In this document: in pieces, positions 1,351-27,361 of the stretch
Position numbering within the stretch: position 1 is the stretch's first letter
How the letters are laid out: every line of letters begins with the position of its first letter
NCBI GenBank assembly: GCA_016125495.1
Contig: WGLQ01000023.1
Span: 1-64,000, forward strand
Length of the DNA stretch: 64,000 bases
From: Hyphomicrobiales bacterium
Lineage (GTDB): Bacteria; Pseudomonadota; Alphaproteobacteria; Rhizobiales; RI-29
Direction of reading: 5' to 3'
Notes under the pieces: generated by a model
Told to the model about the DNA's origin: nothing
Seen by the model: only the letters and a program-made list of their open reading frames with translations
Databases searched by the model: none
Position numbers and translations under genes: made by a program

Positions 1351-1488
1351 ATGCGCAAGCTCGCGACGGGCCGTGCCATCCGCCGGGCCGTACTCGCAGC
1401 AACTCTTCTGGCCAGCCTCACATATATTGGTTCCGCCCTTGCCGCGCCACTCGCCGGCGCCGACGCCGGAGTGCAGGTCGACCACTGA
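1351..1488 (+). CDS. Small ORF with signal peptide (45 aa), possible gene remnant
   Basis: A 45-residue ORF preceded immediately by AAAGGGAA. It begins with a basic region (MRKLATGRAIRR), continues with a hydrophobic core (AVLAATLLASLTYIGSA) and has a signal-peptidase-like LAA/A junction, leaving about 15 mature residues. This looks like an exported leader. It may be the left-over 5' end of a deleted periplasmic binding protein, or a genuine micropeptide. It lies 37 bases upstream of the molybdopterin oxidoreductase on the same strand and is in frame with a long non-coding frame. No family is recognised. Confidence 0.4.
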   Translation: MRKLATGRAIRRAVLAATLLASLTYIGSALAAPLAGADAGVQVDH

Positions 1489-1525
1489 CAATCAACGGGA
1501 AAGACAAGCAACGGGAGAGAACGCA

Positions 1526-12323: not shown

Positions 12324-12419
12324 GTTCATTCCTCCCTCAATTCGTGATCCGGTTGACCGGGTTCCGACCCGGTCGAGCTTAGGGGATGACGAGCAATAGG
12401 GGAAATAGAATTAATTCGC

Positions 12420-13334
12420 CTATTTATTCGGTGACGCTATGGACCGTAACTTGGTCGCGAGTTCCGCGATCAGCTCGTTGGCGAGTTCTCGGGCGGTGAG
12501 GGACAAGGTATCGGGACCGCGGGCGATGATGACGAGCGGTGTTGCCACCTTCTGTTTGACCCGGCGGATCACGATCCCGCCGAGCGCGACCGCGGCCGCT
12601 GCCGAGTAGGGATCGACGACGGCCAGCTTGCCCGTCGCACGTGCGAGCGCCGCGACAGCGGGTGTCGAGGGCGACGTGAGGGTCGGATTGAAGCCAGCGA
12701 ATTCGGCATCCGCGAGCGGCCCGCCAACCAGGCTGCGGTTGACCGCGTCGTACATGACGAACTCGTTCGGGGCTATGCTGGTGAGGTCGAGCGGTTCGGA
12801 GTTGCGTGCCTCGGGATGGTATTCCGGAACGATGCAGACGTGCCGAAGCATCATTTCGTGGATCACGAAGAGCTGCTCGGGCAGCCGGCGTGGGCTGATC
12901 ACGGCAAGGTCGATCTGCTGCAGAGAGACCGCCTCGATGAGCGCCGGCGTGTTGCGCACTCTCACCTCGATCCTGAGGTCTGGCCGCATGGCATGCACGC
13001 GCGCCACAGCCTCGGGCATGACCCTATAGGTCAGGGCCGGGATGATGCCGAGCGTAACCTCTCCTGCCGTGGTCTCGCGGATCGAGGCTGCAACCTCCTT
13101 CAGCCGATCGATGCCGATGAACATGCTCTCGACGGCGGAGTTGAGCCGGCGTGCCTCGATGGTCGCGATGATGCCGCGCCCGTTGCGCGCAAAGAGCTGA
13201 AAGCCCACCGAGCGCTCGAGGTCCCCGATGAGGCGGCTGACACTCGGTTGGGAGATGTTGAGCAGGCGGGCGGCTCCGCTGATCGAGCCGGCGCGCATCG
13301 CAGCCCGGAATGCCTCGAGCTGGCGAGCATTCAT
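12420..13334 (-). CDS. LysR-family transcriptional regulator
   Basis: 304 residues with the N-terminal winged helix-turn-helix (MNARQLEAFRAAMRAGSISGAARLLNISQPSVSRLI) and a periplasmic-binding-like effector domain from about residue 90. The ATG at 13334 is chosen over one five codons upstream because AGGAGA lies just before it. It faces the dioxygenase gene across a short region with an imperfect inverted repeat at 13367-13389, the classic arrangement for control of a divergent gene. The downstream binding protein, on the same strand, could also be a target. The effector is unknown. Confidence 0.9.
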   Translation of the reverse strand: MNARQLEAFRAAMRAGSISGAARLLNISQPSVSRLIGDLERSVGFQLFARNGRGIIATIEARRLNSAVESMFIGIDRLKEVAASIRETTAGEVTLGIIPALTYRVMPEAVARVHAMRPDLRIEVRVRNTPALIEAVSLQQIDLAVISPRRLPEQLFVIHEMMLRHVCIVPEYHPEARNSEPLDLTSIAPNEFVMYDAVNRSLVGGPLADAEFAGFNPTLTSPSTPAVAALARATGKLAVVDPYSAAAAVALGGIVIRRVKQKVATPLVIIARGPDTLSLTARELANELIAELATKLRSIASPNK

Positions 13335-13366
13335 GGCATCTCCTGACATTCGCCGAGTCTATGGAT

Positions 13367-13389
13367 CGACGAAATCATTCTATTTGTCG
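13367..13389. promoter_or_regulatory. Imperfect inverted repeat, candidate LysR operator
   Basis: The sequence reads CGACGAAAT, six bases, then ATTTGTCG: a dyad with one base slipped, AT-rich against the GC-rich surroundings. It lies in the 106-base gap between the divergent LysR gene and the dioxygenase gene. LysR proteins usually bind an interrupted T-N11-A dyad in exactly this place. The function is inferred from position. Confidence 0.45.
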
Positions 13390-13440
13390 TATGGCGGATC
13401 CCTGTCAATCCTGCCTCATGGAACTTCGCTGGAGGTTGCA

Positions 13441-14640
13441 ATGGTTGGGAGTTCGACGATTTCGCGAGATGCCTGGACCCTTCGATCGGTCGAACCGGGC
13501 CCCGAGGGGCTGTCGGTTGAGTATGCCAACGGCCGGCGATCGCTGTTCCACTCGATCTGGCTCCGCGACAACTGCCGGTGCGACGCCTGCGGCATGCCCG
13601 AGACCGGTCGACGCACGCTGAGGCTGACCGGCCTCGATCTCTCCGTCGTTGCCACCAGGGCGGTCATCGGTCGCGACGATACGCTCGAGATCGACTGGTC
13701 GGACGGTCACCGGAGCCGGTTCACCGGCGAGTGGCTGAAGACCCATGCCTACGACGATGCCGCGCGGCGCGAGCGCGCCTTCAGGCCACGCATCTGGGAC
13801 GACGCCGTTCGCAAGAGCCCACCCGTGATGAGCTTTCCGGAGGTCGCCGGTGACGATCGACTTTATCTTCGGATGCTACAGACGGTGCGCGACCTCGGCC
13901 TCTGCTTTCTGCGCGGCGCGCCTGCCGAGGCCGGCCGCCTCGAGCCATTCGCGCGCCGGATCGGCCCCATCCAGGAGAGTAATTTCGGCCGCATCCAGGA
14001 TCTCGTGGTCGACGAGACGAAACAGAGCGTCGCCAATCGGACGATCGCGCTGAAGCCACATACGGACGAGCCCTATCGGGCATCGCCACCGGGCATTCTT
14101 CTCTTTCACTGCATTGCGACCGACGTGACGGGCGCCGGGTCCTCGACCTTCATGGACGGCTTCGAGCTGGCTGAGATCCTTCGCGCCGAGGACCCGGAGG
14201 GATTTGCCGCACTCACTCGCAACCGCATGGCCTTCCGTCGGCATTTCGCAGGCGACGTCGACATCATCACCGAGTTCCCGGCGCTCTCGGTCGATGAATT
14301 CGGAAACCTGATGGGAGTGCGCATCAATGACCGGGTGGCCGCCCCGCTCGCCATCCGGCCGGACGAGGTGGCCGCCCATTATCGCGGCATGAAGCGCCTT
14401 CTCGAACTCGCCGAGGATCCGGCTCGCATGCTTCTGCTCACACTTCGACCCGGGGACGTTGCCGTCTTCGACAATCATCGCATGCTGCACGGGCGCACCG
14501 AGCTCACCATGAAGGGCAAACGCTGGCTGCAATGGCTGCAGGTCGAGCGCGGCGACTTCCACTCGACGCTGAGGGTTCTCGCCGACAGACTCGGCGAAAC
14601 CCGCGATGCCAAGCCACTGCTGCGCGGCGCCTATGGCTGA
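13441..14640 (+). CDS. Gamma-butyrobetaine dioxygenase-like 2OG/Fe(II) oxygenase
   Basis: 399 residues starting at the ATG behind GGAGG. The N-terminal domain has WLRDNCRCDAC with C45, C47 and C50 and a following WLKTH, the zinc-binding set of gamma-butyrobetaine and trimethyllysine dioxygenases. The TauD-like barrel supplies H207 and D209 (KPHTDEP) and H350 (MLHGR), the iron triad. The family hydroxylates trimethylammonium carboxylic acids using 2-oxoglutarate and oxygen. It forms a two-gene unit with the SDR nine bases downstream, which could oxidise the new hydroxyl. The substrate need not be gamma-butyrobetaine, since no carnitine gene set is seen. Confidence 0.85.
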   Translation: MVGSSTISRDAWTLRSVEPGPEGLSVEYANGRRSLFHSIWLRDNCRCDACGMPETGRRTLRLTGLDLSVVATRAVIGRDDTLEIDWSDGHRSRFTGEWLKTHAYDDAARRERAFRPRIWDDAVRKSPPVMSFPEVAGDDRLYLRMLQTVRDLGLCFLRGAPAEAGRLEPFARRIGPIQESNFGRIQDLVVDETKQSVANRTIALKPHTDEPYRASPPGILLFHCIATDVTGAGSSTFMDGFELAEILRAEDPEGFAALTRNRMAFRRHFAGDVDIITEFPALSVDEFGNLMGVRINDRVAAPLAIRPDEVAAHYRGMKRLLELAEDPARMLLLTLRPGDVAVFDNHRMLHGRTELTMKGKRWLQWLQVERGDFHSTLRVLADRLGETRDAKPLLRGAYG

Positions 14641-14649
14641 GGGGCGATA

Positions 14650-15408
14650 ATGACCGCGCTCGTCGTGACCGGCGCGAGCCGGGGAATCGGGGCGGAGATC
14701 GCGAGGCGGGCCGCGGCTACCGGCCGACCGGTCGCCCTCAACTACAACCGTTCCCGCGCCGAGGCCGAGGAGGTCGTTACGAGCATCAGGACAGCCGGCG
14801 GCCGGGCGCTCGCGGTTGCAGCCGATGTCTCTGATCCCGAGCAGGTCGAGGCCATGTTCGCCCACATCGACCGCGATCTCGGACCCATCACGGGCCTCGT
14901 CAACAACGCGGGCGTCAACGGCTCATCCGGCCGGGTCGAGGCGCTCGATCCGAAGGCAACCGCACGCCTCCTGTCGGTCAACGTTCTCGGCCCATTCCTT
15001 TGCGCCGGAGCCGCAATCCGTCGCATGGCGAGGCGCCATGGTGGGCAGGGCGGTGTGATCGTCAACATCTCCTCGGCTGCTGCCCGCCACGGCGGCCCGG
15101 GCTCCTATGTGGACTATGCCGCGTCCAAGGGGGCACTCGACACATTCACGATCGGCCTCGCACGCGAGCAGGCGAGCGAGGGCATCCGTGTCAATGGCCT
15201 GAGGCCCGGCGCCACAATGACCGAACTCAGCCGCGAATGGATGCGCTCCCACCCCGATTGGGAGAGCTGGGTCATCGGACAAGTGCCGCTCGGGCGCCCG
15301 GCTCGTATGGAGGAGATCGCGCGCGCCGCGCTCTTCCTTCTCTCGGAGGATGCCTCCTACATCACTGGAGCCATCCTCGATGCCTCGGGCGGCTGGGTCA
15401 GTCCTTAG
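14650..15408 (+). CDS. SDR-family NAD(P)-dependent oxidoreductase
   Basis: 252 residues of a classical short-chain dehydrogenase: TGASRGIG cofactor loop at the N-terminus, NNAGVNG, the SSAA catalytic serine region, the YAASK tyrosine-lysine pair (YVDYAASKGALDTF), and a C-terminal ITGAILDASGGW as in the 3-oxoacyl-ACP reductase branch. It starts nine bases after the dioxygenase stop and should be cotranscribed with it. A likely role is oxidation of the alcohol made by that oxygenase. Confidence 0.88.
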   Translation: MTALVVTGASRGIGAEIARRAAATGRPVALNYNRSRAEAEEVVTSIRTAGGRALAVAADVSDPEQVEAMFAHIDRDLGPITGLVNNAGVNGSSGRVEALDPKATARLLSVNVLGPFLCAGAAIRRMARRHGGQGGVIVNISSAAARHGGPGSYVDYAASKGALDTFTIGLAREQASEGIRVNGLRPGATMTELSREWMRSHPDWESWVIGQVPLGRPARMEEIARAALFLLSEDASYITGAILDASGGWVSP

Positions 15409-15717: not shown

Positions 15718-17178
15718 TCAATTGCGCGGGCGAATGGCGAATGCGACGTTCTTGGTCTGCACGTAGTTCCAGAGCGCTTCACGGCCCTTCTCTCGGCCGT
15801 AGCCGGACTTCCCAAAGCCGCCGAAAGGCGTTTCGACGCCGCCCGCATACCACTCGTTGACGAAGACCTGGCCCGCGCGCAGATCGCGAGCGGTACGTGT
15901 CGCGCGACCGAGGTCGCGCGTGAAGACGCCGGCGACGAGCCCGTAGTCGGTTCCGTTGGCGATCGCGATCGCTTCCTGCTCGGTTCTGAAAGGCATGACG
16001 GCGACCACCGGTCCAAAAACCTCCTCGCGTGCGATCGTCATGTCTGGAGTGACGTCCGTCAGAACGGTCGGCTCGAAGAAGGCGCCGGGCCGGTTCAATT
16101 TGCGTCCGCCAGCCGCGGTCCGGGCACCATCGGCGAGCGCCTTGGCGACCATTGCCTCGGTACGGTCGCGTTGGGCCTCGCTCACCATCGAGCCCATGTT
16201 GGCACCACAAGCGGGTCGCTCGAGCCCTGGCCCGACCGAAAGTCCTTTCGCGATTGCGGCCGCACGCTCCACGAGTTCGGCGAGCCGGCTCTCATGCACG
16301 AGCACGCGCGACATCGCCGAGCAGACCTGGCCCGCGTTGAAGAAGATGCCCCACCTGAGGTCGCTCTCGAAGGCTTCGAGGTCGGCGTCATCGTAGACGA
16401 TCGCGGCCGACTTGCCGCCGAGTTCGAGCACGCAGGGAACGACGTTGCCCGCCGCCGCCCGTGCGATCGAAATCCCGGTTGCGACCGAGCCGGTAAAGAC
16501 GATCTGGTTCACGCCCGGATGGCCGGCGAGCGCGGCGCCCGCCTCCTGTCCGAGCCCGCAGATCACATTGACCGCGCCCGCAGGAAGGCCGGCCGCCTCG
16601 GCCGCCTCCGCGATGAAGCCGATGGCGAGGGGCGTCAGTTCGGGCGACTTGACGACGACGGCGTTGCCCGTCGCGAGCGCGGCCGACAGGGATCGCGCCG
16701 TCATCTCGATCGGATAATTCCAGGGAATGATCTGCGCCGAGACGCCGTAGGGCTCGTGCACCGTAAAATCGAGGTAGCCGCGACCGAGCGGGATCGAGCG
16801 ACCCTCGACGGTCTCGGCCTGATTGCCGTAATACTCGAAATAGCGCGCAGCCCCTTCGACCTCGAGGCGCGCCTCCCAGAGCGGCTTGCCCTGCTCGCGT
16901 GTCAGTACCTCGGCGATCTCGTCGATCCGCTCGAGGAGATGGCGCCCGATCGCCTGGACCATGCGCCCGCGCTCGACCGGACGCAGTCCCGAGAGCGCTC
17001 CGGAGCGGTGCAACTCGCGGGCGGCGGCCACGGCCCGTTCGACGTCGCGCGCGTCCGCCATGGCCTGCTCGGCCAGCCTCTCGCCGCTCGAAGGATCGCT
17101 GACCGCGAGCCGCCCGCCGCCGCCGTCCACCCAGGCGCCAGCGATGTAGTTTTGCCAGTAGGGCCTGATGTCAGCCAT
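15718..17178 (-). CDS. Aldehyde dehydrogenase (NAD(P)+), betaine-aldehyde-dehydrogenase-like
   Basis: 486 residues, the usual length of the family. Seen are IPWNYP, KSPELTP, FTGSVATG, the general-base glutamate in ELGGKSA, the catalytic cysteine in NAGQVCSA, EEVFGPV and the C-terminal PFGGFGKSGYGREKG. It oxidises an aldehyde to the carboxylate. GGGAGG precedes the ATG. Its start overlaps the end of the Rieske oxygenase gene by eight bases, so the two are one transcript. The pairing suggests that it removes formaldehyde or an amino-aldehyde released by oxidative N-dealkylation. Confidence 0.9.
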   Translation of the reverse strand: MADIRPYWQNYIAGAWVDGGGGRLAVSDPSSGERLAEQAMADARDVERAVAAARELHRSGALSGLRPVERGRMVQAIGRHLLERIDEIAEVLTREQGKPLWEARLEVEGAARYFEYYGNQAETVEGRSIPLGRGYLDFTVHEPYGVSAQIIPWNYPIEMTARSLSAALATGNAVVVKSPELTPLAIGFIAEAAEAAGLPAGAVNVICGLGQEAGAALAGHPGVNQIVFTGSVATGISIARAAAGNVVPCVLELGGKSAAIVYDDADLEAFESDLRWGIFFNAGQVCSAMSRVLVHESRLAELVERAAAIAKGLSVGPGLERPACGANMGSMVSEAQRDRTEAMVAKALADGARTAAGGRKLNRPGAFFEPTVLTDVTPDMTIAREEVFGPVVAVMPFRTEQEAIAIANGTDYGLVAGVFTRDLGRATRTARDLRAGQVFVNEWYAGGVETPFGGFGKSGYGREKGREALWNYVQTKNVAFAIRPRN

Positions 17179-18286
17179 CGACGGCCTCCCGCATCCATTG
17201 CTGAAGCTTCGAGATGGAGTGCTCGGAATTGAGACCGCACGCGGGATCGAGCACCAGAGGGCCCGGTCGATAGCCGCGCGATTTCAATCCCCGATGGACG
17301 CTCTCGACCAGCCTTATGTCCTCTTCGACGGTCGTTGCCCGGTCCTGCCGCGCGAGCCGGTGCACGACCTCGTCGTCGGCTCCATCGATGCTGTACCAGC
17401 CGCGCCAGACGGTGCAGTTGTCGACGTCGTGCGCCCGCCAGTGGTAGGTGTTGAGGACGTTTCCGGGATAGACCTGGAACGACAACATCGGCCAGAGGAA
17501 AAAGCTGCGGTACTCGCCCGCGTGCGGTACGGACAGATCGACCGGATAGGTCATTGCCTCCATCGACTGGCACTCGGTGGTGTGGCGCAGGACGTAGCCG
17601 TCGCCGAGCGGCTGGATGTCGTAGCTCTCAGGCCGGATCACGCCGGTTGCGAACGTCGGGTGGTTGATCGTGCAGTGGTAGCACTCGGAGTAGTTCTCCA
17701 CCGAGACCTTCCAATTGCAGCGCTCGGGGATTTCGACCCACTGGAGGGGCGCCAGGCGGGCGATTTGGGGAACATATTCCGCAAGCTCCTGGCGCACGCC
17801 AGGATACCATTCGTCCATCGGCAGGGCATCGGGATCGAGGTTGACGAAAACGAAACCGTGGAAGATCTCGGTTCGCACCTCGGTGAGGCACACCGCCTTG
17901 CGGTCGAAACCCGGAACCGCACCGATGTTGGGCCCGCCGCGCAGCTCGCCGGTCAATTCATAGGTCCAGGCGTGGTAGGGACAGACGACGAGCCGAGTTG
18001 TACCGTCGCCTTCGAGCAGCCGGTGCGCGCGGTGCTGGCAGACGTTGTAGAACGTGCGCAGCGTCCCGTCCCGCCCGCGAATGGAAAAAAGGTCCTCGCC
18101 CGCGATCGAGAAGGAAAAGTAATCCCCGGCGCCGCGTGCCTGGCTCTCGTGGCCCGCGAACTGCCAAGTGCGCGAGAGGAGGCCGAGGCGTTCCCTCTCG
18201 AAGATCGTGGGGTCGGTATAGTACCGGGCCTCCAGCGAGTGGAGCGGGCCGGTCCTCGGCGCGATCGGCTGGGACGTCAGGGTCAT
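17171..18286 (-). CDS. Rieske non-heme iron oxygenase, quaternary-amine (GbcA/CntA) type
   Basis: 371 residues. The N-terminal Rieske domain binds a 2Fe-2S cluster through C83, H85, C102 and H105. The catalytic domain shows VENYSECYHCTINHP, giving iron ligands H204 and H209, with D323 as the probable third. The residue bridging cluster and iron is E201 rather than the usual aspartate, as in carnitine monooxygenase and related glycine-betaine and stachydrine demethylases. It probably N-demethylates or cleaves a quaternary ammonium acid. The reductase partner is not in the window. It overlaps the regulator gene by four bases and the aldehyde dehydrogenase gene by eight. Confidence 0.88.
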   Translation of the reverse strand: MTLTSQPIAPRTGPLHSLEARYYTDPTIFERERLGLLSRTWQFAGHESQARGAGDYFSFSIAGEDLFSIRGRDGTLRTFYNVCQHRAHRLLEGDGTTRLVVCPYHAWTYELTGELRGGPNIGAVPGFDRKAVCLTEVRTEIFHGFVFVNLDPDALPMDEWYPGVRQELAEYVPQIARLAPLQWVEIPERCNWKVSVENYSECYHCTINHPTFATGVIRPESYDIQPLGDGYVLRHTTECQSMEAMTYPVDLSVPHAGEYRSFFLWPMLSFQVYPGNVLNTYHWRAHDVDNCTVWRGWYSIDGADDEVVHRLARQDRATTVEEDIRLVESVHRGLKSRGYRPGPLVLDPACGLNSEHSISKLQQWMREAVDG

Positions 18287-19218
18287 CCCTCGTCCTCCTC
18301 ATCATCGTTCACGTAGATGCCGAGGGCATGGCGTTTCGCATGGAAGGAATCGATGCTGGCGACGACCTCGTCGCCGGCTTCCGCGATGACGAATGCGGTG
18401 AGCAGTTCGAAAAAGGCCGTCAGGGCGACCGTCGAGGTGAAGAATTGCGGTGTCTCGGTCGCCACGATGAAGCGGTGCTGCGCATCGGCCATGATCGGAC
18501 AGGCCGGGCTGTCGGAGATGGCGACGAGCGGCACCCGCTGCTGGCGCGCGATCGTCACGGCATCGACGACCTCACGCCGGTAGGGCCGGAAGGTCATTGC
18601 GATGAGAAGGTCGCGATGGTCGGCCCTGGCGAGGCCGTCGATCGGCAGCGTTCCGCCGTTCGGCAGCGCCCTGACCCCATCGATCGCCATGCCGGCAAGG
18701 TAAGCGAAGTTCTGCGCGACCGGATTTGCGACCCCGACCCCGAGCACATAGGTCCGCCGGGCCGCCACGATCGCGCGCGCGGCTCCAGCGATCCTCGCGT
18801 GATCCGTCGCGGCAAAGAAGCCTTCGAGATTGTCGATCGAGCTGGATGCCGTCTCGGCATAGAGGCTGCCCAGTTCGCCGCGCCGCGAGATGGACTGTAG
18901 CCATCGGGCCCGGTCGGGATAGGTCTCGCGGCCGCAGCGGATCTCGGCGCGGAAGACCTCACGCATCGCTTCGAAGCTCGGAAAGCCGGCGACATGTGCG
19001 AGGCGCACGAGGGTGTTCGGCTTGACCCCGGCGCGCATCGCGAGTTGGCGGATGGAGCTGATCCCGATCTCGTTGGGATGCTCGAGCACGAACGCGGCCG
19101 CTTTCGCCAGCTCCGGCGTCATGCCTTGGCGCTGTGCCTGCAGGCTGGCGAGCAGCTCCTGGCTACGGAGTGCGCTCGCGACATTTGGTACGTTTGTTCG
19201 ATTCATGATTGACCACAT
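18283..19218 (-). CDS. MurR/RpiR-family transcriptional regulator
   Basis: 311 residues: an N-terminal RpiR helix-turn-helix (about 25-95; FVLEHPNEIGISSIRQLAMRAG) and a C-terminal SIS sugar-phosphate-binding domain (about 135-265; YVLGVGVANPVAQNFAYLAG). It is the first gene of the minus-strand unit with the Rieske oxygenase and the aldehyde dehydrogenase, and diverges from the dimethylglycine-dehydrogenase-like gene. A start four codons in, at 19206, is equally possible because neither has a strong ribosome-binding site. RpiR-type regulators are known in betaine and hydroxyproline-betaine clusters, where the ligand is probably an imino acid rather than a sugar phosphate. Confidence 0.88.
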   Translation of the reverse strand: MWSIMNRTNVPNVASALRSQELLASLQAQRQGMTPELAKAAAFVLEHPNEIGISSIRQLAMRAGVKPNTLVRLAHVAGFPSFEAMREVFRAEIRCGRETYPDRARWLQSISRRGELGSLYAETASSSIDNLEGFFAATDHARIAGAARAIVAARRTYVLGVGVANPVAQNFAYLAGMAIDGVRALPNGGTLPIDGLARADHRDLLIAMTFRPYRREVVDAVTIARQQRVPLVAISDSPACPIMADAQHRFIVATETPQFFTSTVALTAFFELLTAFVIAEAGDEVVASIDSFHAKRHALGIYVNDDEEDEG

Positions 19219-19227
19219 AACAAACGT
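19190..19227. promoter_or_regulatory. Inverted repeat ACGTTTGTT/AACAAACGT, candidate operator
   Basis: A perfect 9-base dyad (19190-19198 and 19219-19227) with a 20-base spacer, flanked by GG and CC one base further out. It spans the start of the MurR/RpiR gene and the start of the divergent gap of about 50 bases. This is the expected place for an operator controlling both directions. Binding by that regulator is inferred. Confidence 0.5.
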
Positions 19228-19271
19228 TCCATAATCCGGTCCAGGAGAATCGCTCGAGGAGGGTGTCGCGC

Positions 19272-21710
19272 ATGGTTCCCGAACAGGCCCGGGTCGTCGT
19301 CATCGGTGGTGGCATCATGGGCTGCGGGCTTGCCTACCACCTCGCCCACGAGGGCTGGCGCGATGTCGTCCTCCTCGAAAAAGGGGAACTGACGAGCGGC
19401 TCGACGTGGCATGCGGCCGGCCAGATAACGCATTCGACCTCGAGCTTCGCCCTCGGGAAATGCGTCGGCTACAACATCGATCTCTACTCGAAAATCCTCG
19501 AAGCCGAGACCGGCCAGAGCGTGACGTGGCACGGCTGCGGCTCGCTCAGGCTCGCATACACGGACGACGAACTCGATTGGCTGCACCAGACGATCTCGGT
19601 CGGTCGCGGTCTCGGATTCGCGATGGAAATCGTCGGACCCGAGCGCATCCGCGCGCTGCACCCCTTCTACAACCTCCAAGGCGTCAAGGCGGCGCTCCAC
19701 ACCCCGGACGATGGTCACGTCGATCCGGCTGGCGCGGCCTTCGCGCTCGCCAAGGGGGCGCGGCAGCTCGGCGCCCGGGTGATCCGCCAGTGCCGCGTGA
19801 CGGGGGTCGCCCGGACGGCAGGAGGGGAATGGCTGGTCGAGACCGAAGCCGGCACCATCCGCTGCGAGCACATCGTCAACGCCGCCGGCACCTATGCCCG
19901 CCAGATCGCCCTCTGGTCCGGCTACGACCTGCCGACCACCTCGATGACACACCACTATCTCATCACCGAAACGGTGCCCGAGTTCCGCGATCTCGAGCGC
20001 GAACTGCCCGTCGTGCGCGACGACCGGCTCGTGTCGGGTTACGTACGGATGGAGCAGAAGTCGGGGCTCATCGGCATCTACGAGAAGGCCAACCCCAACA
20101 CGGTCTGGGACGAGCATTGCCCGTGGGAGGCCGAGAACGAACTCTTCGAGCCCGACTACGACCGCATCATGCCGTGGCTCGAGAATGCCATGGGGCGGAT
20201 GCCCGTCCTCGCATCGCTCGGCATCAAGCGGGCGGTGCACGGTGCCATCAGCCATCCCCCGGATGGCAATCCCCTGATCGGCCCCGCCCCAAATCTTGCC
20301 AACTACTGGTGCTGCTGCGGCACACAGATCGGTATCGGCTGGGGCCCCGGCCTGACGCGCGAGCTGGCGCGCTGGATGGTGCATGGGGCGGGCGACATCA
20401 ACATGCGCGAGTTCGACCCGCGCCGTTTCGGTCCCTACGCGACCAAGGCGTGGCAGATCGTCAAGGCCAAGGAGGATTATCTCCTGCGCCACGAGGTGCC
20501 CTTCCCCCACTTCAACCGTCTCGCGGGCCGGCCCGTCAAGACCTCGCCGATGTATGCCGATCTCATTGCCGAGGGGGCGGTCTGCGAGGAAGTTCACGGC
20601 TGGGAACGGCCGCGTTGGTTCGCGCCCGAGGGCACTGAGGCGCGCGACATCTACGGCTTTCGCCGCACCCGCCTGCACGAGATCGTGCGGGCCGAGGTGC
20701 GCGCCGTGCGCGAGCGTGCCGGGATCATGGACATTTCCGCTTTCACGAAGGTCGAGGTGGCAGGCCCCGGCGCCGCCGCCTTCCTCGACCGCCTCGTGGC
20801 GAACCGGCTGCCCGGCAAGCCTGGGCGCATCACGCTGACGCATTTTCTCAACGATCACGGACGCATCGAACTCGAGGCGACGGTGGCACGCCTCGCCAGC
20901 GATCGGTATTATGTCGTCTCGGCGGCCTTTTTCGAGCAGCGGCTCATGGACCTGCTTCAAGCAGCGGAGCCGGCTGGCGACGTCGTCATCACCAACCGCT
21001 CGCTGGAGTGGGCGGCCCTTGCATTGAACGGACCGGCCTCGCGCGACATTCTCTCCACGGTCACCGACGCCGACCTCACGAATGCCGCCTTTCCCTGGCT
21101 CACGGCCCGCGAGATCACCATCGCCGGTCGGAGCGTCTGGGCATTGCGCATGTCCTATGCGGGTGAACTCGGCTGGGAGCTGCATGGCGAGCGCGATGCG
21201 ATCCACGAGGCGTTCCGCGCGATCAAGTCGGCCGGGCGCCCGCACGGTCTCGCCAACTACGGCTCCTTCGCGATGAACTCCATGCGGATGGAAAAGGCAT
21301 TCAAGGGTGCCGTTGAACTGACCAACGAGGTCACGCTGCCCGAGGCGGACGTGATGCGCTTCGTCACCCTCGACAAGGAGTTCCGTGGAAGGGCGGCGAC
21401 GGCCGCGGCGACGGCAGCACCGCTGCGCTGGGTCTGTGCATACCTCGAGATCGACGGCGATGGGCGCTCGGACGGCAACGGCGGCGAGGCGGTGCTGGCC
21501 GCAGGCAGGCAGGTCGGCACGATTTCCTCCGTCGCCTGGGGGCACGGTGTCGACCGCCTGCTGGCCTTTGCCTATGTGCGCCCCGAACATGCGGCGCCGG
21601 GAACCCCGCTGGAGGTCGTCGTCATGGGTGAGGCTCGACCCGCGCGGGTGCTCGGCGCGCCTGCTTACGATCCATCCGGCGCCCGACCGCGCGCGAACAC
21701 AAGAGGATAG
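19272..21710 (+). CDS. Dimethylglycine/sarcosine dehydrogenase-like FAD protein with GcvT domain
   Basis: 812 residues. The N-terminal FAD domain (VVVIGGGIMGCGLAYHL) has SGSTWHAAG with H47 at the position used for covalent FAD in dimethylglycine dehydrogenase. A middle FAO domain and a C-terminal aminomethyltransferase pair follow (ADLIAEGAVCEEVHGWERP, EVRAVRERAGIMDISAFTKVEVAGPGA, SYAGELGWELH). It should oxidise an N-methyl group and pass the C1 unit to tetrahydrofolate. The start behind GAGGAGGG is preferred over a GTG three codons upstream. It heads the plus-strand operon, with four bases to the next gene. Confidence 0.87.
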   Translation: MVPEQARVVVIGGGIMGCGLAYHLAHEGWRDVVLLEKGELTSGSTWHAAGQITHSTSSFALGKCVGYNIDLYSKILEAETGQSVTWHGCGSLRLAYTDDELDWLHQTISVGRGLGFAMEIVGPERIRALHPFYNLQGVKAALHTPDDGHVDPAGAAFALAKGARQLGARVIRQCRVTGVARTAGGEWLVETEAGTIRCEHIVNAAGTYARQIALWSGYDLPTTSMTHHYLITETVPEFRDLERELPVVRDDRLVSGYVRMEQKSGLIGIYEKANPNTVWDEHCPWEAENELFEPDYDRIMPWLENAMGRMPVLASLGIKRAVHGAISHPPDGNPLIGPAPNLANYWCCCGTQIGIGWGPGLTRELARWMVHGAGDINMREFDPRRFGPYATKAWQIVKAKEDYLLRHEVPFPHFNRLAGRPVKTSPMYADLIAEGAVCEEVHGWERPRWFAPEGTEARDIYGFRRTRLHEIVRAEVRAVRERAGIMDISAFTKVEVAGPGAAAFLDRLVANRLPGKPGRITLTHFLNDHGRIELEATVARLASDRYYVVSAAFFEQRLMDLLQAAEPAGDVVITNRSLEWAALALNGPASRDILSTVTDADLTNAAFPWLTAREITIAGRSVWALRMSYAGELGWELHGERDAIHEAFRAIKSAGRPHGLANYGSFAMNSMRMEKAFKGAVELTNEVTLPEADVMRFVTLDKEFRGRAATAAATAAPLRWVCAYLEIDGDGRSDGNGGEAVLAAGRQVGTISSVAWGHGVDRLLAFAYVRPEHAAPGTPLEVVVMGEARPARVLGAPAYDPSGARPRANTRG

Positions 21711-21714
21711 CGGC

Positions 21715-22812
21715 ATGAGCAAGGGGACGGATGCGCATCCTCGAACCATGCGCGCCATGGTGACGATCGGCCACGGCGGCTTCGACAAGCTGGTCTGGCA
21801 CGAGGCCTGGCCGCGCCCGGAGCCGAGGCAGGGTGAAGTCCTGATCCGTGTCGGAGCCTGCGGCCTCAACAACACCGACATCAATACGCGCACGGGATGG
21901 TATTCCAAGGCCGTAAAGGGCGGGACCTGCGGCGAGGGCGCAGAGCGCAACGCCGGCGACGACCCGAGCTGGGGTGGTGCGACGATAAGCTTCCCCCGCA
22001 TCCAGGGCGCCGACGTCTGCGGCGAGATCGTCGCGGTCGGCGCAGGTGTCGATGCCTCGCGCATCGGCGAGCGGATCATCACGGACAACTGGCTGCGCGA
22101 TCCTGCCGATCCGCACGACAAAGGAAAGGCCGGCTATTTCGGCTCCGAACGGGATGGGGGATTCGCCGAATACTGCACGATCCCAGCCGCCAATGCGCTG
22201 CCCGTGCGCTCGTCGCTCAGCGATGCCGAATTGGCGACGTTCTCGTGTTCCTATTCCACCGCCGAAGGCATGCTGACTCGGGCCGCGGTAACGTCGGCAG
22301 ACTCGGTGCTGGTGCCCGGTGCCTCGGGCGGCGTCGGAGGCGCGCTCGTGCAGCTCGCCAAGCATCGCGGTGCCCGTGTCATTGCGATGGCTTCCGAAGC
22401 CAAGCACAGCGAAGTCCAGGCGCTGGCCCCGGATCGGCTTTTGTCCCGTGCCCCGGACGACCTGCGCGCGGCACTCGGCGGCGAGCGCATCACTGTCGTT
22501 GCGGACGTGGTCGGCGGGCCGACCTGGGCGGGCCTCATCGACGTGCTCGAGCGCGGTGGTCGCTATGTCACCGCCGGCGCGATCGCCGGACCCATCGTGC
22601 CGCTCGACCTGCGCACACTTTATCTCCGCGATTTGACCTTCTTCGGCTCGACCGTGATCGATCCTGGCGTGATGCCGCGCCTCGTCCAGCTCATCGAGAC
22701 CGGTGCCGTCCGTCCGATGCTGGCTGCAACCTATCCCCTCCGAGAACTCACGCAGGCACAGCGGGCCTTCACCGCAAAGACGCATTCCGGAAACATCGTC
22801 GTCATCCCCTAG
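21715..22812 (+). CDS. MDR-family zinc-independent alcohol dehydrogenase/quinone reductase-like
   Basis: 365 residues of the medium-chain reductase superfamily: GroES-like N-terminal domain (VLIRVGACGLNNTDINTRTG, GADVCGEIVAVGAGV), then a Rossmann domain with VPGASGGVGGALVQLAKHRGARVIA. The cysteine and histidine ligands of the zinc alcohol dehydrogenases are not evident, so it belongs with quinone-reductase/enoyl-reductase types. AAGAGGA lies before the ATG, four bases after the flavoprotein stop. In the pathway it could reduce or oxidise an enone or imine intermediate. Confidence 0.85.
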   Translation: MSKGTDAHPRTMRAMVTIGHGGFDKLVWHEAWPRPEPRQGEVLIRVGACGLNNTDINTRTGWYSKAVKGGTCGEGAERNAGDDPSWGGATISFPRIQGADVCGEIVAVGAGVDASRIGERIITDNWLRDPADPHDKGKAGYFGSERDGGFAEYCTIPAANALPVRSSLSDAELATFSCSYSTAEGMLTRAAVTSADSVLVPGASGGVGGALVQLAKHRGARVIAMASEAKHSEVQALAPDRLLSRAPDDLRAALGGERITVVADVVGGPTWAGLIDVLERGGRYVTAGAIAGPIVPLDLRTLYLRDLTFFGSTVIDPGVMPRLVQLIETGAVRPMLAATYPLRELTQAQRAFTAKTHSGNIVVIP

Positions 22813-22839
22813 AATGCATTTTTTCAAGGACCCTGCGAA

Positions 22840-23952
22840 ATGAAGATCACTCGGGTTCGCGTCTTCAGAACCGACCTGCCCTATGTCGGAGGCGCCTACG
22901 TCTGGGGGGCGGGAAATGCGATCACCGTGGCACGTGCAAGCGTCGTGGTAATCGACACGGATTCCGGCCTCCAGGGCTGCGGCGAGTTTACACCGTGCGG
23001 GGACAATTACATGGTCGCCCACTCGGAGGGCGTCGAGGCGGCCGCTCGCATCCTTGCCCCTGTCCTGCTCGGTGTGGACCCCCGCCAGGTCGCGCGTATC
23101 GAGCGGCTCATGGATGCCACCATCCAGGGACACGGCTATGCCAAGGCTCCGTTCGACGCGGCTTGCTGGGACATTCTCGGCCAATCGCTCGGCGCGCCGG
23201 TCTGGCTCTTGCTCGGCGGCAAGCTCACCGACGGGGCGCCCATGTACCGGGTGGCGCCACAGAAGGAGACCAAGGAGACGATCGCGGAGATGAACGACTA
23301 CCGCGCCCAGGGGTATCGCCAGTTCCAGATCAAGGTCGGTGGCGACTGGGCGAGCGATATCGAACGCATCCGCTCAACGGTTGCGCTCCTCGAGCCGGGC
23401 GAAAGGGCGCTCGCTGACGCGAACCAGGGCTGGCGTGTCGATAACGCGATCCGCGTCGCCCGCGCCACGCGCGATCTCGATTTCATCCTCGAGCAACCGT
23501 GCCACAGCTACGAGGAGTGCCAGCAGGTGCGGCGGGTCGCCGAGCAGCCGCTGAAGCTCGATGAATGCGTGACAGGAATGGCGGCGGCACAGCGCATCGT
23601 CGCCGATCGCGGCGCGGAGATCTGCTGCCTCAAAATCTCGAACCTCGGTGGTCTCTCCAAGGCGCGACGCGTCCGTGACTTCCTCGTCGACAATCGCATC
23701 CCCGTCGTTGCCGAGGATACCTGGGGTGGCGAGATCACGTCGGCGACCTTGGCGCATTTCGCAGCATCGACACCGCCGGAATACCTCCAGAACACGACGG
23801 ACCTCATGAACTACAACACCCGTTCGACCGGGATCGGCGGCCCATCGGCAAAGGAGGGCAAGCTCTATGCCACCGACACGCCCGGGCTCGGCGTGAGACC
23901 GGATTTCGAGAGCCTCGGTGGCGCCGTTGCGAGCTATGGAGAACCGAATTGA
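22840..23952 (+). CDS. Enolase-superfamily enzyme 1 (racemase/dehydratase)
   Basis: 370 residues of the mandelate racemase/muconate lactonizing family. Metal ligands D193 (ADANQGW), E218 (EQP) and D241 (LDEC) are present. Of the usual KxK pair only K165 is kept (QFQIK, Q163); K265 (CLKIS) sits on the other face. Two opposed lysines fit a 1,1-proton-transfer racemase/epimerase or a dehydratase. The Y100-x-K102 motif (GHGYAKAPFD) resembles cis-3-hydroxyproline dehydratases and hydroxyproline-betaine epimerase (HpbD). AAGGA precedes the ATG. It is the first of four related genes. Confidence 0.87.
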   Translation: MKITRVRVFRTDLPYVGGAYVWGAGNAITVARASVVVIDTDSGLQGCGEFTPCGDNYMVAHSEGVEAAARILAPVLLGVDPRQVARIERLMDATIQGHGYAKAPFDAACWDILGQSLGAPVWLLLGGKLTDGAPMYRVAPQKETKETIAEMNDYRAQGYRQFQIKVGGDWASDIERIRSTVALLEPGERALADANQGWRVDNAIRVARATRDLDFILEQPCHSYEECQQVRRVAEQPLKLDECVTGMAAAQRIVADRGAEICCLKISNLGGLSKARRVRDFLVDNRIPVVAEDTWGGEITSATLAHFAASTPPEYLQNTTDLMNYNTRSTGIGGPSAKEGKLYATDTPGLGVRPDFESLGGAVASYGEPN

Positions 23953-25055
23953 GGATCACGAGGATCAGCGTCTATCGCATCGACCTGCCGCTCGAGCACC
24001 CCTACTGGCTCTCGGCCGGCCGCCTCAAGTTCGAGGTCCTCGATGCCACGTTCGTCAAGCTCGAGACCGACGAGGGGCTGGTCGGTTGGGGGGAGGGCAC
24101 GCCCTGGGGCCACACGTATCTGCCGGCGCATGGACCAGGCATTCGCGCCGGCATAGGGACCATGGCCCCGTTCGTCCTCGGCCTCGATCCGCGCCGGGTC
24201 CTCGATGTCGAGCGCGCGATGGACCTCGCGCTGCCGGGGCACCTCTATGCCAAGGCGCCCATCGACATGGCCTGCTGGGACATCGCCGGCCAGGCGGCGG
24301 GCCTGCCGATCGCCGACCTTATGGGCGGCGGTTCGCGCACGCCGAGGCCGATTGCCTCCTCGGTCGGGGCCAAGACCATCGAGGAGACGCGCGAGGTGAT
24401 CGAGCGCTACCGGGCGCGCGGCTACGTCACCCACTCGATCAAGATCGGCGGAAACGTCGGCCGCGACATCGCCCGGGTCCGCGACGTCGAGAGCATCCGC
24501 CAGCCCGGCGAGATCATGCTCTACGACGCCAACCGCGGCTGGAGCCGGGCGCAGGCGCTCAAGGTTATGCGCGCGACCGACGACCTCGACGTCACCTTCG
24601 AGCAGCCCTGCGAAACGCTCGACGATATCGCCGCCATTTCCGGCAAGCATGCCGCTCCCGTCTCGGTCGACGAGAGCCTCGTGACCCTCCAGGATGCCAC
24701 GCGCATCGCCCGCGACGGGATCGCGGAGCTTTTCGGCATCAAGCTCAACCGCGTCGGCGGGCTCACGAAGGCGGCGCGGATGCGTGACGTCGCCCTTGCG
24801 CACGGCATCGAGATGTTCGTGATGGCGACGGGTGGCACCGTGCTTGCCGACACCGAGGCGCTCCATCTCGCCGCGACCATCCCCGACGAGAGCTGCCGGG
24901 CGGTCTGGGCCTGCCAGGACATGCTCACGGTCGATGTCGCCGGCGGCCGCGGGCCGCGGAACACGTCTGGCCACCTTGAACTCCCCGAAACCCCGGGCCT
25001 CGGGGTCCATCCGGACGAGGAGGTGCTCGGGGAACCGGAGGCGGTTTACGCATGA
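23949..25055 (+). CDS. Enolase-superfamily enzyme 2, TTG start
   Basis: 368 residues. D193, E218, D241, K165 (HSIKIGG, S163) and K265 (GIKLNRVGG) align at the same positions as in the neighbouring paralogue, with Y100-x-K102. The frame starts with TTG inside the stop of the preceding gene (TTGA), behind GGAG, and its translation MRITRIS matches the family's beginning, so translational coupling is likely. It ends with a four-base overlap with the next paralogue. Its late metal-site region has MATGGTVLA where paralogues 1 and 3 have an EDTWG motif, which should change specificity. Confidence 0.85.
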   Translation: MRITRISVYRIDLPLEHPYWLSAGRLKFEVLDATFVKLETDEGLVGWGEGTPWGHTYLPAHGPGIRAGIGTMAPFVLGLDPRRVLDVERAMDLALPGHLYAKAPIDMACWDIAGQAAGLPIADLMGGGSRTPRPIASSVGAKTIEETREVIERYRARGYVTHSIKIGGNVGRDIARVRDVESIRQPGEIMLYDANRGWSRAQALKVMRATDDLDVTFEQPCETLDDIAAISGKHAAPVSVDESLVTLQDATRIARDGIAELFGIKLNRVGGLTKAARMRDVALAHGIEMFVMATGGTVLADTEALHLAATIPDESCRAVWACQDMLTVDVAGGRGPRNTSGHLELPETPGLGVHPDEEVLGEPEAVYA

Positions 25056-26158
25056 AGATCACGAAGCTCTCGATCTGGCATGTGCCGCTGACCAGCCACG
25101 TCGCCTACCACATGGCAGGCGGCAAGACATGCGACACGGTGACGTCCGCCATCCTCAGGTTGGACACGGATGCCGGGGTGTCGGGCTGGGGCGAGGTCTG
25201 CCCCATTCCACGCTATCTGCCCGCCTATGCCGAGGGAGTGGCCCCGGCGCTCTCCCATCTGGCGCCCGTCGTGCTCGGTGCGGACCCGGTCGGCCCCGAA
25301 GCCCTCATGAGCGAGGTCGATGCGGCCCTTCAGGGGCACGTCTATGCGAAATCCATCCTCGACATGGCGCTCTGGGACATCACCGCACGAGCCGCTGGTC
25401 TGCCGCTTTATCGCCTTCTCGGGGGCCGTCAGGTCGCCGACATGCCGCTCTATCATTCCATCACGTGCGTTGCTCCCGATGACATGGCGCGGATGGCCCG
25501 CGAGGCGCTGCGGGAGGGCATAGGGCAGTTCCAGGTCAAGCTTGGTGCCGACAACGACTGGCAGGCCGATGTCGCCCGCTTGCGGCTCGTGCGCGAGGCG
25601 GTCGGCGACGGGCCGCTGGTCTATGGGGACTGGAACTGCGGAGCAACGCGCCTCGAGGCAACGCGCGTCGGTCGCGCCGTCGCCGATCTCGACATCATGA
25701 TGGAGCAACCCTGCCCGACGCTCGAGGATTGTGCGGCTGTACGGGCGGCAACCGGGCTTGCCATGAAGATCGACGAACTCGCCCACGATACCGCCTCGCT
25801 CCTTGCGGCTCACCGTCTCGGCTGCATGGATGCCGTTGCGATCAAGCTCTCGAAGTTCGGTGGCATCTCGGCGTCGCGGCGCGCGCGCGATCTCTGCCTC
25901 CACCTCGGTGCCAGGATGTGCATCGAGGACACCTGGGGCTCGGACGTTACGACCGCCGCATTGCTGCATCTGGCTGCAGCGACACCGGCCCGAGCGCTCC
26001 TCAATACCTGCGACCTTTCGGGCTACGTTGCCCCGCGCCTCGATCCCTCGGCACCCGTTCGCCGGGCGGGCCGCATTGCGCCGCCCGAGGGGCCGGGCCT
26101 TGGTGTGACGCCGGACCTCGAGCAACTCGGTCCGCCCGTCGCCGACTATGCTATTTGA
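25052..26158 (+). CDS. Enolase-superfamily enzyme 3, cis-3-hydroxyproline dehydratase/HpbD-like
   Basis: 368 residues. Catalytic candidates are K163 (QFQVKLGA), D193 (GDWNCGA, unusual compared with DANxGW), E218, D241 and K265 (AIKLSKFGG). The HVYAKSILD and QVKLG strings are closest of the four to hydroxyproline-betaine 2-epimerase and cis-3-hydroxy-L-proline dehydratase sequences as I know them. It overlaps the previous gene by four bases (ATGA). A racemase or dehydratase acting on a proline-type acid or betaine is the best guess. Confidence 0.87.
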   Translation: MKITKLSIWHVPLTSHVAYHMAGGKTCDTVTSAILRLDTDAGVSGWGEVCPIPRYLPAYAEGVAPALSHLAPVVLGADPVGPEALMSEVDAALQGHVYAKSILDMALWDITARAAGLPLYRLLGGRQVADMPLYHSITCVAPDDMARMAREALREGIGQFQVKLGADNDWQADVARLRLVREAVGDGPLVYGDWNCGATRLEATRVGRAVADLDIMMEQPCPTLEDCAAVRAATGLAMKIDELAHDTASLLAAHRLGCMDAVAIKLSKFGGISASRRARDLCLHLGARMCIEDTWGSDVTTAALLHLAAATPARALLNTCDLSGYVAPRLDPSAPVRRAGRIAPPEGPGLGVTPDLEQLGPPVADYAI

Positions 26159-26263
26159 GGCAGCACAGTCCGACTGGCCGCCCGCCCTTCCACCGGGCCC
26201 CAGTGCGGACTCGAGACGATACGCAGACGGATCGGATGTATTCTTGGTCGAGGAATTGAAACC

Positions 26264-27361
26264 ATGCGGATCGAAAAGATAACGGTCTGGAGTCATCCTC
26301 TCGAGCTGAAGGTTCCGTTCGGAATCTCAGGCGGACGCTCCCTTGACCGACTGGACACGACCCTGGTCGAGATGACGACCGACCAAGGGATCACCGGCTG
26401 GGGCGAGAGCTGTCCCTGGGGCGCCGATTACCTGCCCGCTTTTCCCGAGGCGGTTCGAGCCGGCATTCTGCTCGCTGCGCCTGGGATCATCGGGCTCGAC
26501 CCGCGCGACGCCCTGGCGATCGGCGACGTCGTCTCCAGGCGGCTGCGCGGCCAGCCTTCGATCGCGACCGCGCTCGATATGGCCGCAGCCGACATCGCGG
26601 CTCGCGCTGCCGGTGTTCCATTGTGGCGGTATCTCGGAGGTCGCCTGACGCGCGAACTGGTCTCGTCTGGCGGAATCGGCCAGACCCCGGGGCCGGAAGC
26701 CGAGGCACGCATCGGCCAGCATCGTGCGAATGGGGTAAAGCAGATGTCGGCCAAAGCGAACGGGCGCGCCGAGGAGGATATCGCATTCATTCGTTTCGTT
26801 CAGGAACGCCTCGAGCCGGGCGAGTTCATGAAGCTCGACGTCAATGGCGGTTGGACGCTCTACGATGCGATGCGGGTGGCCGAGGTTCTCGATCACCGGA
26901 TCCTGATCGAACAGCCGTGTGCGAGCTACGAGGACTGCCGTAACTTCGTCCGCCTATCCGGCCGCCCAGTGTACCTGGACGAGACAGTCGCGGGCGCGCA
27001 AGACATCCTGCGCGCGAGTGCCGATGGGGTTCTGGCGGGTGTCAATCTCAAGCTCGGGCGGCTGGGTGGACCGACGCCGACGCGTCTGCTGCGGGACCTT
27101 TGTGCGAGCCTTTCCCTCCCGATGTTCGTCCAGGATACCGGGGGCTCCCAGGTTGCTCTCGCCGCCACGTGCCACATGGCGTCGGGCGTTCCCACCGACC
27201 TCTTGATCAGTGTCTGGGACTGCGCAGTGATCCTGCGCGACCCCCTCGGGTCAGGTGGCGTCGACCGGCGGCCCGACTGCCTTGTTGCCGGCGACGAGCC
27301 AGGTCTCGGCGTCACCGTCGATCGCGAGCGCCTCGGCATACCGTTCGCCGTGATATCCTAG
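26264..27361 (+). CDS. Enolase-superfamily enzyme 4, divergent
   Basis: 365 residues. K164 (MSAKANG, S162), D192 (LDVNGGW), E216 (EQP), D239 (LDET) and K263 (NLKLGRLGG) are present. Unlike its three neighbours it lacks the tyrosine-lysine pair in helix GxxYAK, having GQPSIATALD there, and it has QDTGGSQ late in the barrel. It is set apart by a 105-base gap with its own GAGGA ribosome-binding site, so it could have its own promoter. The substrate is likely related but not the same. Confidence 0.85.
   Translation: MRIEKITVWSHPLELKVPFGISGGRSLDRLDTTLVEMTTDQGITGWGESCPWGADYLPAFPEAVRAGILLAAPGIIGLDPRDALAIGDVVSRRLRGQPSIATALDMAAADIAARAAGVPLWRYLGGRLTRELVSSGGIGQTPGPEAEARIGQHRANGVKQMSAKANGRAEEDIAFIRFVQERLEPGEFMKLDVNGGWTLYDAMRVAEVLDHRILIEQPCASYEDCRNFVRLSGRPVYLDETVAGAQDILRASADGVLAGVNLKLGRLGGPTPTRLLRDLCASLSLPMFVQDTGGSQVALAATCHMASGVPTDLLISVWDCAVILRDPLGSGGVDRRPDCLVAGDEPGLGVTVDRERLGIPFAVIS

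Follow-up and report, generated by a model that had tools for sequence, protein, structure and literature searches.

Among the closest described systems, the hydroxyproline-betaine (hpb) route has a layout that we take to be one enolase-superfamily (ES) enzyme, a Rieske oxygenase with its reductase, and downstream genes of hydroxyproline use; beyond this layout, the comparison with hpb was made through chains in the PDB. Its ES enzyme is HpbD (2pmq, 4h2h). Other points of reference are the carnitine monooxygenase CntA (6y8j), dimethylglycine dehydrogenase (DMGDH; 4p9s, 5l46), and the neighborhood of dddQ in Ruegeria pomeroyi (SPO1593, SPO1596) and Roseovarius nubinhibens (ISM_14095, dddQ1/dddQ2). 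Here we describe a cluster of nine genes at positions 15718-27361 of a window of 64,000 nucleotides, the whole stretch analyzed, from contig WGLQ01000023.1 of a Hyphomicrobiales bacterium. The cluster is real, conserved, and not unique to this genome, and it is of the same operon type as the dddQ neighborhood. The main gain is this tie of a betaine-type operon to DddQ, the cupin lyase that splits dimethylsulfoniopropionate and sets free the gas dimethyl sulfide; marine bacteria with close relatives of the cluster often have DddQ in it. The features are as follows.

15718-17178, minus strand: aldehyde dehydrogenase (ALDH), PF00171 at 516 bits; apparently betaine-aldehyde-dehydrogenase-like, with TIGR01804 at 412 bits, under its equivalog cut-off of 669
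17171-18286, minus strand: Rieske non-haem iron oxygenase, CntA-like by family profile and similarity to CntA
18283-19218 (as annotated), minus strand: RpiR-family regulator, PF01418 (HTH_6) and PF01380 (SIS)
19190-19227, no strand: candidate RpiR operator, with 9-bp arms and conservation across loci
19272-21710, plus strand: DMGDH-like flavoprotein, DAO and GCV_T domains, 511 bits to 4p9s
21715-22812, plus strand: MDR-family reductase, 67% to the MDR protein of the R. nubinhibens locus (L106)
22840-23952, plus strand: ES1, enolase superfamily, 78% to 2rdx, grouping with 4mgg
23949-25055, plus strand: ES2, enolase superfamily, nearest PDB chain 3eez at 710 bits
25052-26158, plus strand: ES3, enolase superfamily, grouping with the HpbD chains 2pmq/4h2h
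26264-27361, plus strand: ES4, enolase superfamily, at the position of the aminotransferase in relatives

The nine genes form two divergent units: the minus strand carries ALDH-Rieske-RpiR, and the plus strand DMGDH-MDR-ES1-ES2-ES3-ES4. There are overlaps of 4-8 bases between ALDH and Rieske, Rieske and RpiR, ES1 and ES2, and ES2 and ES3, and gaps of 4 bases between DMGDH and MDR, 27 between MDR and ES1, and 105 between ES3 and ES4. The four ES genes are part of a genome total of 14 MR_MLE_C genes above cut-off. The Rieske protein carries the CxH...CxxH cluster motif and, within NYSECYHCTINH, Glu201, which aligns with the ECYHC stretch of CntA and with 3vca at the bridging position, where Glu in place of Asp is a mark of quaternary-amine Rieske oxygenases. 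Its best match is CntA (199 bits over residues 21-363 of 371), and its best NCBIfam match is GbcA, at 143 bits against a cut-off of 670. The DMGDH-like protein aligns with 4p9s over nearly its full length and keeps the His of the STWHAAG motif that links FAD. As judged by sequence similarity, the Rieske and DMGDH parts are thus nearest to enzymes of quaternary and tertiary N-methyl compounds. An initial annotation of the window had named these families, their positions, the Glu bridging residue, and the two divergent units around one candidate operator, and profile searches, the CntA alignment, the layout, and operator conservation agree with it, apart from the start of RpiR. It was also right that the cluster has no Rieske reductase; its statement that there is no transporter holds for the cluster itself, while the window does contain a gene of the SBP_bac_5 family at 10731-12329.

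Both this cluster and hpb pair an ES enzyme with a Rieske oxygenase. However, the window has four ES genes rather than one, a DMGDH-like demethylase, no Rieske reductase, and no downstream genes for hydroxyproline, and its relatives differ further from hpb in having a class III aminotransferase. Membership in hpb, with the layout as we take it, was rejected, as reductase, transporter, and hydroxyproline genes are all missing from the cluster; it is no stray variant of hpb. The likeness to CntA lies in the 199-bit match and the bridging Glu, whereas the cluster differs in having no CntB-type reductase and another gene context. Dimethylglycine dehydrogenase is matched in domains (DAO plus GCV_T), length, and FAD-linking motif, but here the gene shares its context with Rieske and ES genes. 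The dddQ and ES5 genes of the R. nubinhibens locus are absent from the window copy, which has ES4 in addition and whose aminotransferase homologue is encoded on another contig.

To establish how widely the cluster occurs, the Rieske protein was used as the query, and the best 80 of 584 relatives were kept as loci, a set that therefore leans to Ruegeria and close relatives; 54 of the 80 have full flanks. Gene presence was scored by tblastn at identity limits of our choosing, by which divergent copies may be missed. The loci are by title mostly Rhodobacteraceae (Ruegeria, Roseovarius, Shimia, Aliiroseovarius, Defluviimonas, and others), and the cluster occurs in many members of this family and in some other Alphaproteobacteria. 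RpiR was found in 74 of the 80 loci, DMGDH in 73, a CMD-family protein in 64, ES3 (the ES enzyme most often kept) in 61, a class III aminotransferase in 57, MDR in 55, ES2 in 52, a DddQ-type gene in 45, ES1 in 35, ALDH in 30, ES5 in 5, and SBP5 in 3. ES1 is never present without MDR (0/80). ES4 was detected in none of the 80 loci at a 45% identity limit and in none of the other 384 genomes of a 385-genome class sample at E<=1e-85.

Gene order is conserved as well. RpiR and DMGDH are divergent in 53 of the 54 full loci, as in the window, and an MDR homologue directly follows DMGDH in 38 of them and in the window. A core of five genes (RpiR, Rieske, DMGDH, ES3, and the class III aminotransferase) is complete in 44/54, and in 7 loci it stands without ES1, ES2, ES5, MDR, or DddQ. 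ES3 adjoins the aminotransferase in 44 of the 54, though not in the window. In the class sample, 29 of 385 genomes match at E<=1e-60, 17 of them with at least 50% identity (own genome included), and in a phylum sample 9 of 398 match at E<=1e-90, own genome included, all from the same class; weaker relatives (L046, L047, L051, L052, L056, and L057) have less of the cluster alongside. Of 198 other genomes in the same taxonomic order, 5 have ES3 at E<=1e-120; in one of these (L171), the locus reads ALDH-Rieske-RpiR//DMGDH-MDR-ES1-ES2-ES3, and the aminotransferase takes the position that ES4 has in the window. The search of genome neighborhoods that the initial annotation had proposed was thereby run and recovered matching clusters in many Alphaproteobacteria, and the suggestion that the system is new does not stand, the cluster being widespread in relatives and its MDR-dddQ part already in print (PMC3338564). 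Neither the aminotransferase nor DddQ could be seen in that annotation, since the window copy lacks both.

The small genes that follow MDR in relatives are cupins of the DMSP_lyase family (PF16867; two examples tested). One type matches the DddQ chains 5jso/4la2, presumably from Ruegeria lacuscaerulensis, at 228 bits; for the second type, the matches are 5cu1 (168 bits) and 4b29 (134 bits). DddQ-type genes are present in 36 of the 54 full loci, mostly directly after MDR (33/54 at looser limits). MDR is found in 31 of the 36 full loci with DddQ versus 8 of the 18 without, and ES1 in 25/36 versus 2/18. The R. nubinhibens locus has the order RpiR-Rieske // DMGDH-MDR-DddQ-DddQ-ES5-ES1-ES2-ES3. R. 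pomeroyi is taken to carry the operon too, on the grounds that dddQ lies beside MDR and that 3eez, which we believe to be an R. pomeroyi protein, is nearest to ES2. The window operon has neither dddQ nor ES5; the genome holds four PF16867 genes at other sites.

The association was also examined from the side of DddQ, in 25 regions around 26 DddQ hits, which came from 24 of 198 genomes belonging to a single family within the class. Twelve of the regions lie in the cluster, 3 have an MDR homologue only, and 10 have no core gene; as to regions without cluster genes, L213 starts at a contig end, L208 has an MDR homologue about 9 kb away, and L224 has a CMD gene beside DddQ. In three regions, L229 (8.6-10.3 kb), L209, and L227 (a short contig), MDR adjoins DddQ and the rest of the cluster is absent, suggesting a separable lyase-reductase pair. 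A linkage of dddQ to an MDR028 gene in R. pomeroyi and R. nubinhibens has been described (PMC3338564). No published account of the Rieske, DMGDH, and ES partners of dddQ was found in the literature searched, which did not extend to the 2011 description of DddQ. Two further loci of this genome likewise hold PF16867 cupins close to N-methyl or aminotransferase genes: on contig C27 (L150, 7459-12225), a DMGDH-like gene, a cupin, and an MTTB methyltransferase gene stand side by side, and on contig C7 (L151, 7268-10283), a cupin gene is divergent from a class III aminotransferase gene whose product is 36-37% to the operon aminotransferase.

The window cluster has no aminotransferase; the nearest homologue in this genome, at 65%, is encoded on contig C35 (48027-49298), the next best reaching 37%. 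Its neighbors are folD, an Opp-like ABC transporter, and flavoproteins of the DAO and old-yellow-enzyme types; the presence of folD fits methyl transfer to folate.

The intergenic region between the two units contains a perfect 9-bp inverted repeat, ACGTTTGTT-N20-AACAAACGT, spanning 38 bp. With up to three mismatches allowed, the window holds a single copy and none of 100 dinucleotide shuffles holds any; some 9-bp arm pair arises in 28 of 2,000 plain shuffles of the 160-bp region, making the repeat weak when taken alone and its conservation the stronger evidence. Comparison of 83 RpiR-DMGDH regions, the window plus 82 from relatives (one of these a duplicate, L039 and L068 having the same sequence), revealed the core CATGRTTGAC in 70. 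Palindrome scores were taken as the best of several frames, so that values of 4-5 of 8 are meaningless, and 2 of the 83 regions had no scorable site. Perfect 8-bp arms are found in 17 relatives and are of three types: ACATTTGT...ACAAATGT in 15, ACATATGT...ACATATGT in L126, and the window-like ACGTTTGT...ACAAACGT in L135, indicating that both arms change together. The CAT at 19204-19206 is conserved, and the first start codon of the RpiR open reading frame (ORF) of L078 is the same one, which places the RpiR start probably at 19206 rather than 19218. The operator overlaps this probable start codon and a TTGAC that resembles the -35 element of a promoter for DMGDH, a placement that would fit RpiR autoregulation with shared control of both units through the predicted binding.

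All four window ES proteins keep the K-D-E-D-K pentad, as do 156 of 156 ES proteins of the loci, all of distinct sequence. In a midpoint-rooted tree with four PDB reference stretches, ES3 groups with HpbD (2pmq) at a support of 0.998, although identity is only 36%, and ES1 groups with 4mgg (support of 0.899, 43% identity). Against the NF043002 model, with a cut-off of 500 bits, ES1 scores 403, ES3 334, ES2 319, and ES4 264, and none reaches the cut-off. A closer look at the column of the HpbD Trp, which we take to line the quaternary ammonium group, separates the paralogues. HpbD itself has Trp-Leu there, whereas ES3 is without the Trp and has Cys-Asp (62/62). ES2 keeps Trp in the window, as do 55/55 ES2-type proteins of the loci, and window ES4 has Trp-Asp; ES1 has Thr-Asp (34/34), the same as 4mgg, and ES5 has Leu-Asp (5/5). 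One reading of these residues is that demethylation would come after the step of ES2 and ES4 but before that of ES1 and ES3. Three structures belong to this operon type: R. nubinhibens ES1 is identical to 2rdx over 367/367 aligned residues, its ES2 to 2qdd over 366/367, and its ES5 to 2pce over the aligned length except the start residue. In the PDB listing all three bear only generic superfamily names.

Gene content and its conservation, operator conservation, and the catalytic residues are thus directly supported. The best explanation, to which we give a probability of about 0.5, is that of a substrate-induced operon by which an N-methylated ammonium carboxylate is degraded, with release of a primary amine. 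With RpiR on the 38-bp site, the start of its gene and the -35-like element of DMGDH would be covered until the regulator is released by substrate or product. The Rieske oxygenase, with electrons from a reductase encoded elsewhere, would remove the first methyl group as formaldehyde, and the DMGDH-like enzyme would move the remaining methyl groups into the tetrahydrofolate pool. ES3 may move protons at the carbon alpha to the carboxylate and would probably invert a stereocenter; ES2 and ES4 may act on other isomers; and ES1, which groups with a dehydratase, may form with MDR a side branch of elimination and reduction. The freed amine would be taken by the class III aminotransferase, here probably the one from contig C35, and the aldehyde oxidized by ALDH. 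It is the fixed core that suggests such a linear route, from quaternary amine through Rieske, DMGDH, and primary amine to the aminotransferase, with ES3 at the alpha carbon. The proposal in the initial annotation of a catabolic system for N-methylated acids gains from the inducible-looking operon with its shared operator, the intact ES pentads, and the N-methyl-type Rieske and DMGDH proteins.

Several points weigh against this explanation. Transamination of the demethylated product is a guess, as the operon aminotransferase is nearest to glutamate-1-semialdehyde aminomutase (322 bits); it scores 175 bits against D-phenylglycine aminotransferase and 171 bits against beta-phenylalanine aminotransferase, and class III beta-amino acid enzymes score lower. 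No Rieske reductase was found among the nine genes or in the part of the window's ORFs that was scanned, and at least one core gene is missing in 10 of the 54 full loci. Finally, dimethylsulfoniopropionate (DMSP) induces dddQ in both R. pomeroyi and R. nubinhibens (PMC5395565), and DddK, DddQ, and DddU cleave dimethylsulfoxonium propionate (DMSOP) with an efficiency 2- to 83-fold above that on DMSP (PMC10686828), which suggests an organosulfur link of the operon in those bacteria. For homarine, one conceivable N-methylated acid, no link to such a cluster was found in the literature searched by titles and abstract starts.

Of the rival explanations, a proline-type (imino acid) betaine route resembling hpb survives best, although we regard it as rather unlikely. 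Here the ES enzymes would epimerize betaines, the Rieske oxygenase would produce N-methylproline, and the DMGDH-like enzyme would release free proline or hydroxyproline. The tree positions of ES3 and ES1 and the Trp kept by ES2 and ES4 are in its favor, as is growth of the cluster carrier R. nubinhibens on trans-4- and cis-4-hydroxyproline (PMC4113996). The substrate class of the initial annotation, N-methylated acids, is plausible, but the imino acid part is less so, being weakened by the core aminotransferase (44/54) and by the Cys-Asp of ES3: class III aminotransferases act on primary amines, and the enzyme would stand idle with the secondary amine that a proline-type betaine yields. In addition, even the best NF043002 score stays under the cut-off, and neither a DHDPS-type (dihydrodipicolinate synthase) deaminase nor a stand-alone D-amino acid oxidase was detected in the scan of the nine genes with 8 upstream and 2 downstream neighbors. 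R. nubinhibens, which has ES1, ES2, ES3, and ES5, is listed without growth on cis-3-hydroxy-L-proline in Table 3 of PMC4113996, and this compound was set aside as a substrate.

It is less probable still that the operon serves DMSP or DMSOP, with DddQ cleaving the sulfonium, the other genes processing the products or regulating, and the window copy being a decayed form without dddQ. In its favor are the DddQ-type genes in 45/80 loci, the induction by DMSP, the preference for DMSOP, and a 97% loss of dimethyl sulfide (DMS) production in an R. pomeroyi dddQ mutant (PMC5395565); a gene for the DMSP demethylase DmdA is also present in the window (5123-6238). However, the corresponding R. nubinhibens mutant loses only 20%, and the Km of DddQ for DMSP is 22 mM, according to the same paper. 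The R. nubinhibens MDR failed to restore acrylate tolerance to an Escherichia coli yhdH mutant (PMC3338564). DddQ is missing in 18 of the 54 full loci at the limits used and in 17 when any tblastn hit is accepted, and in 10 of the 25 regions dddQ has no core gene as a neighbor. To our knowledge, Rieske, DMGDH, ES, and aminotransferase proteins have no role in DMSP use.

A third possibility, which we hold equally doubtful, is that DddQ evolved, and still mainly serves, as a lyase in a pathway for N-methylated amino acids, with cleavage of DMSP and DMSOP as a by-reaction. DddQ would then eliminate an amine or a hydroxyl group beta to the carboxylate, and the substrate would be a beta-ammonio acid that bears a substituent on its alpha carbon, such as the head group of DGTA. 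DGTA is a marine betaine lipid whose head group is hydroxymethyl-trimethyl-beta-alanine. Rieske and DMGDH would demethylate it, ES enzymes would invert or dehydrate it at the alpha carbon, and reduction by MDR could then be followed by beta-transamination, oxidation by ALDH, and decarboxylation by the protein of the arylmalonate decarboxylase fold that recurs near the Rieske gene (24/80 loci). The cupin lyase DddK has been found to add amines to acrylate (PMC12582016), and a cupin lyase of this kind can thus handle carbon-nitrogen bonds, whereas the preference for DMSOP speaks against DddQ as an amino acid lyase.

Catabolism of carnitine, glycine betaine, or choline is very improbable: the Rieske protein is nearest to CntA and has GbcA as its best NCBIfam match, ALDH is nearest to betaine aldehyde dehydrogenase, and a gamma-butyrobetaine-dioxygenase-like gene lies at 13228-14640, but that gene scores under its cut-off (264 versus 415) and occurs in 0/80 loci, the ES enzymes and the aminotransferase would have no role, and these compounds were set aside as R. 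pomeroyi makes other systems on them, namely, proteins of the CdhABC, BetABC, and MtgBCD types (PMC12478193).

According to an ocean metagenome survey, no bacterial DMSP lyase genes are more abundant than dddP and dddQ. Yet the partners of DddQ in about half of the regions examined here (12/25) work in N-methyl amine and enolate chemistry. The substrate of the operon, once found, would reveal an unrecognized pathway for methylated nitrogen, would bear on the meaning of dddQ counts in metagenomes, and would give functions to 2rdx, 2qdd, and 2pce.

Several neighboring genes do not belong to the cluster. The SBP_bac_5 gene mentioned above (minus strand; PF00496, solute-binding protein family 5) may encode part of a transporter, yet no permease gene lies beside it; relatives of it (44-47%) are found near the cluster in 3/80 loci, within about 1 kb of the Rieske gene in L063 and L065 and about 9 kb away in L128. 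The LysR, gamma-butyrobetaine-dioxygenase-like, and SDR genes at 12420-15408 were rejected as parts of the pathway (0/80 loci at the limits used). The latter two, at 13228-15408 on the plus strand, the first encoding 470 amino acids, are convergent with ALDH. The DmdA-type gene is on the minus strand about 9.5 kb from the cluster, scores 563 bits with NF009133 (cut-off of 410), and lies beside genes for a HIUase-like (5-hydroxyisourate hydrolase) protein, a thiamine pyrophosphate enzyme, and an FMN-dependent dehydrogenase. A molybdopterin oxidoreductase gene at 1373-3664 (plus strand) is near the thiosulfate reductase and dimethyl sulfoxide reductase models, under their cut-offs.

A protein of about 272 amino acids recurs near the Rieske gene in 24/80 loci (L087, 11923-12744, and 16 more loci were aligned), where it adjoins a Sulfotransfer_5 gene; the member tested has no Pfam or NCBIfam match. 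Its predicted structure, with a mean predicted local distance difference test score (pLDDT) of 86.7, has as its best fold match an uncharacterized Rhodococcus protein (4ix1), and the next matches of the model, arylmalonate decarboxylase and maleate isomerase, point to enzymes of proton transfer and decarboxylation.

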